Shown here in pieces: positions 16,311-56,150 of a stretch of DNA of 64,000 bases. Source of the stretch: Polynucleobacter sp. AP-Capit-er-40B-B4 (GTDB lineage: Bacteria; Pseudomonadota; Gammaproteobacteria; Burkholderiales; Burkholderiaceae); the NCBI RefSeq assembly GCF_018882245.1, contig NZ_JACVOV010000003.1, positions 42,607 through 106,606 of the forward strand, in the 5' to 3' direction. The notes beneath the pieces are model-generated. The model did no database searches, had not been told where the DNA came from, and was given only the letters and a program-made list of their open reading frames with translations. Positions within the stretch are counted from its first letter, which is position 1, and the number at the start of each line of letters is the position of its first letter. The translations under genes and the position numbers were made by a program.

Positions 16311-16401
16311 TGGCGCCTCTGCACGCATGCCTGCATGGGAAGCTGCGCCAAGGAGAGCAGGGACCTCCAATTCGCTCCGTCGAGCTAGGCGCAGCTATAG
16401 T

Positions 16402-17619
16402 TTAAGCAGCTTTTTGCCATTCCAGGGTTAAGGTATTCCCCCAGCAGCCAGTTTGGCAATATGACTCCCAGTCTGTTAGAAGCCTTCTTCTTGGTTCTAT
16501 TAGGTCACCTCTCCTATAAGCAGACTCTGTCTTATTTTGGATGGTGTGTGCCAGCACTTTTTCGGCAACTTCTGGAGAGTGTTGAGTTTCTTCGGCCACC
16601 CAGTCGCGAAAAGTCGAACGAAATCCATGGACCGTAAAATCTTTCCCCATTCTGCGCAACATAACTGTTAATGCCATATTGCTAAGATGTTTTCCATTCC
16701 TTGAGAAAAGATATGGGCTATCTCTATCTGAGTGCCACGCAATTGACAGTATCTCTAGAGATCGTTTGCAAAGTGGAACACGATGCTCCTTCTTTGACTT
16801 CATTCGCGTTGCTGGTATTGTCCAAATATCGCCTTGAATTTCTTCTCGGAGCCCATACAGCACTTCCCCCGTCCTATTGGCATTAAGTATCAAAAATTCA
16901 AGCGCAAGGCTTGACAGGCAATCTATAGCCTTGATTTCATTTATGAATGAGGGAAGTTCTTTGTAGGGTAGGGCTTTATGGTGTTCAATCGGAGCCACCT
17001 TGGAAGGTTTTGGCAGGATTGTGTCTAAATGACCTCGCCATTGAGCAGGGTTCATGCCAACGCGAAGCCCTCTGGATGTTGCGGAAGCTAGTATCCATTC
17101 AATTCTGCCTCGTAAACGAGATGCGGTATTCGTCTTTGTTTGCCAAATAGGATTTAATATTTTTAGGATGTCTTCGGTATTTAGCGCGTTTATTGGTAGG
17201 TGGCCAATATGAACAAATGCATAGTCACGAAGAGTATTCCTCCATTGCTCAGCATGTTTCGCATTGCTCCACTCAGATCGTTTGCTTTCTATACACTCAA
17301 GCGCATAATCTTTAAAAGTCACGATTTTTTCTGATTCCCGATTGCATGCCCTGGCGACCTTTCTCTCATCAGCTGGATTCAGCCCCTGATTTACTTGGTT
17401 TCGCGCAGCTACGGCTCTTTTACGTGCCTCCTTCAAGGGAATGGCTGGGTACGAGCCTAAGCTGTAGTCATAACGCTTGTTTTTATAAGAGTACCTAAAT
17501 ACCCAATATTTTTGATGGTTGGCCTTTACTTGGAGGTTGAGGCCTCTAACTTCGCCGTCTGTATATCTCCCAGGGTTTATGAGGTTTTTGATGAATAAAT
17601 CAGTAAAGCAGGTTGCCAT
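16402..17619 (-). CDS. Tyrosine-type site-specific integrase (P4/DUF4102 family)
   Basis: 405 residues, standard length. The N-terminal arm-binding DUF4102 domain (INPGRYTDGEVRGLNLQVK, YSLGSYPAIPLKEARKRA) covers about 1-90 and a SAM-like core-binding domain about 100-200. The catalytic domain has Arg249 (NANRTGE), a Lys near 274-277, His331-x-x-Arg334 (HGFRSTFRDW), His358 and nucleophile Tyr368 (SAYRRGD). All catalytic residues are present, so it should be active. It integrates the element into the tRNA-Ser 3' end. Its start faces attR across about 215 bp that should hold the promoter and arm sites. Confidence 0.95.
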   Translation of the reverse strand: MATCFTDLFIKNLINPGRYTDGEVRGLNLQVKANHQKYWVFRYSYKNKRYDYSLGSYPAIPLKEARKRAVAARNQVNQGLNPADERKVARACNRESEKIVTFKDYALECIESKRSEWSNAKHAEQWRNTLRDYAFVHIGHLPINALNTEDILKILNPIWQTKTNTASRLRGRIEWILASATSRGLRVGMNPAQWRGHLDTILPKPSKVAPIEHHKALPYKELPSFINEIKAIDCLSSLALEFLILNANRTGEVLYGLREEIQGDIWTIPATRMKSKKEHRVPLCKRSLEILSIAWHSDRDSPYLFSRNGKHLSNMALTVMLRRMGKDFTVHGFRSTFRDWVAEETQHSPEVAEKVLAHTIQNKTESAYRRGDLIEPRRRLLTDWESYCQTGCWGNTLTLEWQKAA

Positions 17620-17834
17620 GAAGATTTCCTTTAACTATCCCCACATATTTCCCCACAGGCTCCCCATGGCTGGCTATGTGATGTCTTGGTAAGTAAAGTA
17701 AAGTCTTGTTTGAAAATTAACTACGCAAAAACTATTTATTGCGCAGCTAACCCTTAGGGCATTGGAATTTATAGGGTTTTAGGCTTACTAACGCTTGCTA
17801 GGGTCAAACAAGGCTTTACATGGAGGGATCCTGA

Positions 17835-17848
17835 CACCTCTTCCGCCA
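17835..17848 (+). other. attR core of the tRNA-Ser element
   Basis: CACCTCTTCCGCCA, identical to the tRNA-Ser 3' end at 10357-10370. It is a displaced duplicate of the tRNA end left by integration and marks the right boundary of the island. Confidence 0.85.
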
Positions 17849-17859
17849 AGTTAAATGTA

Positions 17860-17889
17860 AAAAGCCCAGCAACTACTTGCTGGGCTTTT
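17860..17889 (+). terminator. Rho-independent terminator beyond attR
   Basis: A 13-bp perfect stem AAAAGCCCAGCAA / TTGCTGGGCTTTT with loop CTAC, with A and T runs on both sides so it can work in both directions. Before integration it would have lain about 12 bases past tRNA-Ser and was probably its terminator. Now it also ends leftward transcription from the gene at 17951. Confidence 0.85.
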
Positions 17890-17950
17890 ATCTTTTCAGC
17901 TACTGAAAAGAATGACTGTGCTTCTTGGCTACTTCTTGATTGCTTCTTGA

Positions 17951-49154: not shown

Positions 49155-49160
49155 TATAGT
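49155..49160 (+). promoter_or_regulatory. Candidate -10 box of the leuA leader
   Basis: TATAGT with a poor -35 region upstream. Transcription would begin about seven bases on, at or next to the leader peptide ATG, so the leader mRNA may have almost no 5' untranslated region. Confidence 0.35.
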
Positions 49161-49166
49161 AATTCT

Positions 49167-49244
49167 ATGACTATGAATTTCTCACTTTTATCTAGCCTTC
49201 TTCTGCTAGCACTAAGCCTAAAGCTTGGGGCGGGTAAGGCCTGA
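49167..49244 (+). CDS. Leucine-rich leader peptide of leuA
   Basis: A 25-residue frame starting MTMNFSLLSSLLLLALSLKL and ending GAGKA. Nine of 25 residues are leucine, including four consecutive Leu codons (CTT CTT CTG CTA, codons 11-14) and rare-type CTA codons. It lies 119 bp upstream of leuA and ends 41 bases before a terminator. This is the arrangement of ribosome-mediated attenuation: when charged leucyl-tRNA is scarce the ribosome stalls on the Leu codons and an antiterminator forms. Either of two Met codons could start it. No good ribosome binding site is visible. Confidence 0.82.
   Translation: MTMNFSLLSSLLLLALSLKLGAGKA
49223..49231 (+). promoter_or_regulatory. Antiterminator strand of the leuA attenuator
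   Basis: GCTTGGGGC can pair with GCCCCAGC at 49285-49292, with one bulged base. That uses the 5' half of the terminator stem, so the two structures exclude each other. It overlaps Leu codon 20 and its neighbours, just downstream of the Leu-codon run, where a stalled ribosome would leave it free to pair. Confidence 0.6.
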
Positions 49245-49285
49245 GTTAATGAGATAAAAGATATTCATTAGCCACCACATACCAG

Positions 49286-49309
49286 CCCCAGCAAATTGCT
49301 GGGGTTTTT
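49286..49309 (+). terminator. leuA attenuator terminator
   Basis: Stem CCCCAGC / GCTGGGG with loop AAATT (the AA and TT could extend it) and a following TTTTT. It stands 54 bp before leuA and downstream of pssA, so it may also end read-through from pssA. With the leader peptide and antiterminator it makes a complete attenuator. Confidence 0.85.
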
Positions 49310-49363
49310 GTTTTATAAGATTGTATTAATGAGTTCAGCAGCATTTAAAACCGGAGAGTAGTA

Positions 49364-50911
49364 ATGAGCGACAAAGTAATCATTTTTGATACCACCTTAC
49401 GTGATGGCGAGCAGTCACCAGGCGCATCAATGACTAAAGACGAAAAAGTGCGAATTGCGCGCCAGTTAGAGCGTCTTAAAGTTGATGTGATCGAGGCTGG
49501 TTTTGCAGCAAGCTCTGAAGGTGACTTCCAGGCTATTTCTGCTGTGGCGGCTGCTGTCAAAGATTCGATTGTTTGCTCACTCGCCAGAGCCAATGACAAA
49601 GACATTACCCGTGCTGCTGATGCGTTGCAAGCGGCTAATGCAAAGCGTATTCATGCATTCTTGGCCACAAGTCCATTGCATATGGCTGTGAAGTTGCGTA
49701 TGTCTCCAGAAGAGGTTTTGGAGCAAGCTAAACGCTCTATTCGTTTTGCGCGTAACTTGGCTGCTGATATTGAATTCTCTGCTGAGGATGGTTATCGATC
49801 TGAGATGGATTTCTTGTGCAGAGTCGTTGAGGCCGTAATTAAGGAAGGTGCATCCACCATTAATATTCCAGATACGGTTGGTTACGCAACCCCTGAGTTG
49901 TATGGTGAGTTTATTAAGACTTTGCGCACACGAGTGCCTAATTCAGATAAAGCAGTGTGGTCAGTGCATTGCCATAATGACTTGGGTATGGCTGTTGCGA
50001 ACTCTTTGGCTGGCGTCAAGATCGGCGGAGCTCGTCAAATCGAGTGCACGATTAATGGCTTGGGCGAACGTGCAGGTAATACTGCATTAGAAGAAATCGT
50101 GATGTCATTGCGTACCCGCAAGGATTACTTTGATATGGTTTGCGGCATTGATGCTACCCAAATCGTGCCAGCCTCAAAGTTGGTTTCCCAGATAACTGGT
50201 TTTGTTGTGCAGCCTAATAAGGCGGTGGTTGGCGCTAATGCCTTTGCGCACACATCAGGTATTCACCAAGACGGCATATTGAAAAACCGTGACACCTATG
50301 AAATCATGCGCGCAGAAGATGTGGGTTGGTCAGCAAACAAAATTGTTTTGGGTAAGTTATCAGGTCGCAATGCTTTCAAACAACGCTTGCAAGAATTGGG
50401 TATTACGGTTGAAGCTGAGGCTGATTTGAATGAAGCGTTTACTCGTTTTAAGGCCTTGGCAGATCAGAAGTCTGAGATTTTTGATGAAGATATTATTGCC
50501 ATCATGTCTGATTCAGCTGCAGCAGAAGAGGGCGAGCATTACAAATTTATCTCCTTAAGCCAGCATTCTGAAACTGGTGAACGCCCTAAGTCACGTGTGA
50601 CTTTCCGCATGGGTGACAAAGAGATTAGTTCAGAAGCAGAAGGCAACGGACCGGTTGATGCTAGCTTGAATGCGATTGAGGGCATTGCTAAAAGCGGGGC
50701 AGAGCAGTTGCTTTATTCAGTGAATGCAATTACCTCTGGCACACAATCCCAGGGTGAAGTGACTGTTCGTTTGGCTAAAGGCGGTCGTATTGTGAATGGT
50801 GTGGGCACTGATCCCGACATCATTGCAGCCTCTGCGAAGGCCTACTTGTCAGCCTTAAACAAGTTACATGACCCGAGTCAGGCTAAGTTAAACGCTCAAA
50901 TGACCCCTTAA
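49364..50911 (+). CDS. leuA: 2-Isopropylmalate synthase
   Basis: 515 residues. Catalytic TIM barrel with [17 protein letters not shown] near the N-terminus and metal ligands in [34 protein letters not shown] follows, and the C-terminal allosteric leucine-binding domain covers about 390-510. It condenses acetyl-CoA and 2-oxoisovalerate, the first leucine-specific step, using the product of ilvIHC nearby. Feedback inhibition by leucine is expected, in addition to attenuation. Confidence 0.96.
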
Positions 50912-56065: not shown

Positions 56066-56150
56066 GCCGACGTGGTGAAATTGGTAGACACGCTATCTTG
56101 AGGGGGTAGTGGCTTAGGCTGTGCGAGTTCGAGTCTCGCCGTCGGCACCA
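56066..56150 (+). tRNA. tRNA-Leu(GAG)
   Basis: 85-nt class II tRNA with encoded CCA. Acceptor GCCGACG pairs with CGTCGGC. The anticodon stem CTATC/GGTAG encloses loop TTGAGGG with anticodon GAG (CUC/CUU codons). A long variable arm and T-loop GAGTTCGAGTCTC are present. Confidence 0.96.

Follow-up and report, generated by a model that had tools for sequence, protein, structure and literature searches.

A predicted leucine attenuator with a probably leaderless leader frame upstream of leuA in Polynucleobacter

A leucine-rich leader frame between pssA and leuA

The window, i.e. the whole stretch of 64,000 nucleotides that was analysed, belongs to the 2.04 Mb genome of a freshwater-type bacterium. 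Identity of its LeuA with Polynucleobacter LeuA reaches 97%. The gene order around the leader is ilvB-ilvH-ilvC-psd-pssA-leader-leuA, followed by ORFs that we take to be rpsO and pnp. The interval between the end of pssA (49138) and the start of leuA (49364) holds a leader ORF and a terminator, which places the leader directly 5' of a gene of leucine synthesis (Table 1). A tRNA-Leu with the anticodon GAG lies in the same window (56066-56150); by standard pairing this anticodon reads CTC and CTT, both of which are used in the Leu run.

Table 1 Features of the leuA leader region, in positions of the window
Feature	Position	Strand	Sequence or description	Basis
-10-like box	49155..49160	+	TATAGT	followed after 6 nt by the leader ATG
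Leader ORF	49167..49244	+	25 codons and stop, MTMNFSLLSSLLLLALSLKLGAGKA	ATG 49167-49169, TGA 49242-49244
Control codons 11-14	49197..49208	+	CTT CTT CTG CTA, four Leu in a row	kept as Leu in the genus
Pause hairpin 1:2	49212..49228	+	CTAAGC-CTAAA-GCTTGG	91.5% of cells paired
Region 2, antiterminator partner of region 3	49225..49236	+	TTGGGGC-G-GGTA	anchored comparison, MAFFT alignment
Spacer hairpin between regions 2 and 3	49247..49270	+	TAATGA with TCATTA	88.1% of cells paired; fold
Region 3, pairs with region 2 or region 4	49280..49291	+	TACC-A-GCCCCAG	anchored comparison, fold
Intrinsic terminator 3:4	49284..49306	+	AGCCCCAGCA-AAT-TGCTGGGGTT, then T-rich tail TTTGTTTT	sequence, genus comparison
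leuA	49364..50911	+	2-isopropylmalate synthase; GGAGA 5' of the ATG	NF002087 and TIGR00973 above NCBIfam cut-offs

Leucine makes up nine of the 25 residues of the leader peptide, and the short frame carries tandem codons for the very amino acid that the downstream pathway produces. A 25-codon ORF with nine Leu codons, four of them consecutive, had been described in the original prediction, and our reading of the sequence agrees. The starting position given there, 49155, however, marks the onset of the -10-like box and not of the ORF; the feature itself is confirmed. When the segment 49139-49363 was shuffled with its dinucleotides preserved, a short ORF with at least nine Leu and an LLLL run appeared in 9 of 10000 shuffles. 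Thirteen short ORFs lie 5-9 nt behind a -10-like box on the two strands of the whole window, and the leader ORF is the only one with a Leu run of at least three.

The distance between box and ATG is narrowly distributed. Of 95 leaders of the genus, 82 have a spacing of 6 nt and 10 a spacing of 7 nt (3-10 nt permitted); outside the genus it is 6-7 nt in 52 of 60 events (0-15 nt permitted). No Shine-Dalgarno string was found in the sequence 5' of the leader ATG of the window; such a string precedes the leader ATG in 3/95 genus leaders, in contrast to 91/91 for leuA (the latter count leaves aside four rows in which the start of leuA is not anchored). A -10 box 6-7 nt before the ATG together with an absent Shine-Dalgarno string is the arrangement of trpL-type leaderless leaders. 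The transcript thus probably begins with the leader ATG or immediately beside it, and because the box lies 6 nt before an ATG without a Shine-Dalgarno string, the leader ORF is probably leaderless.

Conservation of the leader in the genus

Upstream regions of leuA were collected from 15 LeuA-match records, 10 of them Polynucleobacter, and from 90 of 101 genomes of the genus, giving 105 loci of which 96 are distinct; among the 11 genomes left out, three were left over and eight had a leuA that was cut or not found whole. A terminator 5' of leuA is present in all 96 distinct upstreams. A combined test for a -10 box, a Leu-rich ORF, a GGGG segment and a CCCCAG..CTGGGG terminator was passed by 95 of them, the single failure being L122, whose terminator is present but ends in CTGGGGCT, outside the search pattern. 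In the 95 frames Leu occurs 6-11 times, and its longest run spans 2 to 6 codons (two in 5 and three in 14 frames).

Columns were counted in the 80 of the 95 leaders that share one spacing between region 2 and the stop codon, and the alignment comprises 43 of 63 picked leaders. In the 80 anchored leaders the four columns of the Leu run encode Leu in 69, 78, 76 and 79 cases, and each column uses three to five different Leu codons, a synonymous turnover. Leu is also found two codons past the run in 80/80. Downstream residues behave differently: the codon before the last Leu may be Lys, Gln, Arg, Glu, Ala and others, and codon 19 encodes varying residues while its third base, which pairs in the pause hairpin, is G in 80/80. 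Since the Leu run changes synonymously, and the following residues vary around a fixed pairing base, the run appears to be kept for translation and the part behind it for RNA pairing. The share of CTA among Leu codons is 34% in the 95 leaders versus 3% in five genes of the window; it is 10% in 39 window ORFs of at least 200 aa, which are not validated as genes. The excess of CTA is safe in its direction only.

The same residues bear on a possible additional function in trans, exerted by the leader peptide or by the short RNA that termination would yield; such a function is described for peTrpL and rnTrpL of Sinorhizobium meliloti in the available text of PMC7298713 and PMC10117765. The two systems would be alike in form, each with a leaderless ORF and a short RNA product of termination, but the residues behind the Leu run follow the RNA pairing, and in L101 the frame is shifted behind the run and yields another C-terminus with the RNA segments retained. 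We therefore regard such an additional trans role as unlikely.

A covariance model was built from 43 leaders of the genus. At E<=0.01 it matched once per genome in 61 genus genomes, each time less than 100 nt before leuA; most of these genomes or their close kin had fed the model, and the informative part is the single copy and its position. Two genomes with no leader in the model, G003 and G043, were matched at 9e-11 and 1.5e-14. With strict filters, none of 55 genomes of the same family outside the genus was matched.

A second match of the model in the window's own genome, at 17693-17893 of the window (E 0.0155 / 0.00049), was rejected; it has a CCCAGC terminator and no such Leu-run frame. 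This segment is intergenic and adjoins a phage-type-integrase-like gene (16402-17619, minus strand), and an int-alpA RNA is located at 16329-16395.

Predicted mutually exclusive pairings in the leader RNA

Between the leader ORF and leuA the sequence predicts an intrinsic terminator, a stem followed by a T-rich tail. Its two arms are paired in 97.2% of alignment cells, six of which are doubly changed. The pause hairpin gave 46.9 and 64.3% paired cells when slid by one column, versus 91.5% in register, and includes nine doubly changed cells. The spacer hairpin would stack inside the antiterminator. Slid versions of it are paired in 16-54% of cells; its covariation is weak, with three doubly changed cells, a number equalled by 121/500 shuffles.

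The segment GCTTGGGGC occupies 49223-49231, near the end of the leader ORF. Its pairing with the left arm of the terminator extends to a 2:3 duplex of 11 pairs with one mismatch. In the genus leaders r2+4 pairs with r3-1 in 93 of 95 (82 G-C, 11 A-U) and is broken in L143 and L168. Among 62 distinct, anchored region 2/3 sequences, the +4 position is paired in 60 (C-G 50, U-A 10) and the +9 position in 57 (A-U 46, G-C 9, G-U 2). The GGGG/CCCC core is invariant in all 62, and as it never varies, its pairs are uninformative by themselves. Changed 2:3 pairs are confined to one clade (L016, L158-L167) and L171, which perhaps reflects two events.

On the MAFFT alignment 87.3% of the 2:3 cells are paired, versus 22.6-52.7% in slid versions. 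Covariation of 2:3 is weak there: three cells are doubly changed, three of six slid versions outscore the structure, and the register of one clade is off by a column. Exchanging regions between groups gave a mixed result, clear one way and weak in the other directions. Region 2 of the P group pairs with its own region 3 at an average of -19.7 kcal/mol versus -11.5 with that of B, whereas region 2 of B or C favours its own region 3 over that of P by a small margin only (-18.1 vs -17.0; -16.0 vs -15.8).

Folding was carried out with an assumed ribosome footprint that extends 13 nt beyond the first base in the A site. With the ribosome at codon 11, 12, 13 or 14, the antiterminator forms at -27.3 kcal/mol before region 4 exists; with the ribosome at the stop codon the terminator forms, at -17.2 kcal/mol for the segment. 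The pause, antiterminator and terminator hairpins are thus predicted to be mutually exclusive. In silico the antiterminator excludes the terminator and is freed by a stall at the control codons, and its covariation is thin.

These results bear on several earlier claims. The terminator placed between ORF and leuA by the original prediction is found there, the proposed pairing of GCTTGGGGC with its left arm is present as part of the longer duplex, and exclusive structures are borne out by predicted pairings and folds alike, with a separate pause hairpin in addition. A comparison with relatives had been proposed as a check; close relatives retain both the Leu-rich frame and the exclusive stems, but on the MAFFT alignment the covariation of the antiterminator is thin.

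The hairpin lies directly behind pssA and would also stop read-through from this gene, as expected if it were a mere end-of-operon terminator of ilvBHC-psd-pssA beside an ORF that is Leu-rich by chance. We consider this very unlikely: such an ORF is rare among the shuffles, the frame stays Leu in the genus through synonymous change, and region 2 within the frame remains complementary to the left arm of the terminator. Ending upstream transcripts may instead be a second role of the terminator in an attenuator.

A riboswitch or T-box, sensing a metabolite or tRNA, would likewise present a structured 5' leader and a terminator before a biosynthesis gene. Searches with Rfam, however, returned nothing over threshold in the leader of the window or in 20 related loci (lowest E 1.6 in a permissive scan), and the Leu run is conserved as codons and not as an aptamer. 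Over-threshold matches in the window are three tRNAs and int-alpA only; none is to a T-box, for which Rfam contains a model. A sensor of this kind is extremely unlikely here, and we retain a leader that is sensed by the ribosome.

Proposed control of leuA

Taken together, the leader is with high probability a leucine-responsive, ribosome-mediated transcription attenuator of leuA, as judged from its sequence. Ribosome-mediated attenuation was also the mechanism originally predicted, and the conservation of frame, pairing and terminator in the genus supports it. The frame, its conservation, the pairing potential and the folds of the RNA that a ribosome at each position leaves free were computed; start site, stalling, termination and leucine response we infer.

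RNA polymerase would start at or next to the leader ATG, and a ribosome would translate the leader as a leaderless message. When Leu-tRNA is ample, the ribosome would reach the stop codon and cover region 2, leaving the 3:4 terminator to form. When Leu-tRNA is scarce, it would stall in the Leu run and cover region 1; pairing of 2:3 would then precede the synthesis of region 4, and leuA would be transcribed. If translation is absent, the 1:2 hairpin would sequester region 2 and the terminator would form. Textbook leu and trp attenuation follows the same scheme.

Leaders outside the genus

Additional loci were drawn from an order and a class sample, in which 126/150 and 70/96 genomes were matched; 60 loci were taken, mostly one to three per family. 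Three loci were too short to count, L186 in the order/class sample and L028 and L052 in the LeuA-match set. A strict rule (a listed -10 box, 5-9 nt, ATG, and an ORF of 8-50 codons with LLL) found leaders 5' of leuA in 99/105 genus loci, 32/63 usable loci of L017-L081 and 26/59 usable order/class loci, with shuffle means of 0.27, 0.0 and 0.02, respectively. About half of the non-genus loci fail this rule; some are Leu-rich without LLL, and in others leuA lies directly behind another gene.

An intrinsic terminator was detected by script in 29/32 leaders of L017-L081 versus 2/26 of the order/class sample. Leaders of a Comamonadaceae type follow the same plan as Polynucleobacter, with ACGGGC in the end of the ORF and GGCCCGT in the left arm of the terminator, as seen without a shuffle control. 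In 16 hand-picked leaders of the terminator-less type, which serve as illustration, a small hairpin such as ...CGC NNN GCG CGC-stop closes the ORF, and its loop codon is free.

As the genus model matched none of the 55 same-family genomes outside the genus under strict filters, kinship with these other leaders rests on position, leaderless start and Leu run. We tentatively suggest, at slightly less than an even chance, that one old leaderless leucine leader before leuA is shared by much of the Burkholderiales as GTDB defines them, and that its leaderless start was kept while its read-out changed. It would use an intrinsic terminator in Polynucleobacter and in the Comamonadaceae type; in many other families the Leu-run frame would end in ...GLLLRPAR or a similar sequence, a hairpin would lie at the stop codon without any U-tailed terminator, and the leader would work by Rho or translation. 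If this order-wide terminator-less form is true, the sensor of a single leader may have been retained and its off-switch replaced.

Three further patterns were seen at these loci. The string CAATTNG, a possible Rho or regulatory site, occurs after the leader stop, often behind a C-rich stretch, in 7/26 leaders of the mostly terminator-less set (e.g. L175, L223, L227). By eye, a small frame with ..AIYKWRERG.. or close, possibly a DNA-binding protein, lies before leuA in L177, L189, L203, L206, L214 and L222, all of which failed the strict rule. In L061, L062, L066, L072, L073, L076, L077 and L078, leuA lies behind a frame that ends in ..LFGVGxDxNI.. and is LeuA-like by eye; these eight are perhaps tandem leuA-like genes without a leader.

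Comparison with known systems

No family was found in Pfam or NCBIfam with three leader peptides, and blastn against E. coli genomes gave no match. BLASTP (E up to 100) did not align the leader peptide with E. coli LeuL either, in line with the earlier statement that the two cannot be aligned beyond the Leu run. None of 60 genomes of the order, including that of the window, has a match to RF00512 (Leu_leader) over the gathering cut-off. Weaker matches occur in 45/60, and among the matches listed for the window's genome none is at leuA; E. coli leuL, as a positive control, scored 145.8 bits.

Literature titles and the beginnings of abstracts named no betaproteobacterial attenuator of leuA. Vitreschak 2004 (FEMS Microbiol Lett), which the available text of PMC6123439 cites for such leaders in various Gram-negatives, lies outside this comparison, and an earlier prediction of a beta-proteobacterial leu leader is possible. 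A survey that describes uORFC-8-2, an attenuator candidate of cysS, also covered P. necessarius, and the term leuA is absent from the available main text (PMC8632094). In that text the candidate resembles our leader in being a short ORF that has tandem codons of the sensed amino acid and is followed by a U-tailed hairpin, and differs in concerning Cys, cysS and Rhodobacterales (PMC8632094).

The kind of switch is already known. The leader shares with enterobacterial leuL a leader peptide with a Leu run before leuA and a terminator in between, and the leuL attenuator also has alternative pairing; E. coli leuL, however, has GGAG before the leader ATG, in contrast to the leader of the window. The leader provides leuA with a predicted leucine sensor, and for this bacterial group our searches turned up no Rfam family and no paper. 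In the available text of PMC7298713 and PMC10117765, trpL of S. meliloti differs in concerning tryptophan, trpE(G) and Alphaproteobacteria, and is alike in a leader RNA that begins at the ATG of a leaderless ORF, reported there and inferred here. The leuA leader of Polynucleobacter is an example, easy to test, of an ORF that seemingly lacks a 5' UTR.
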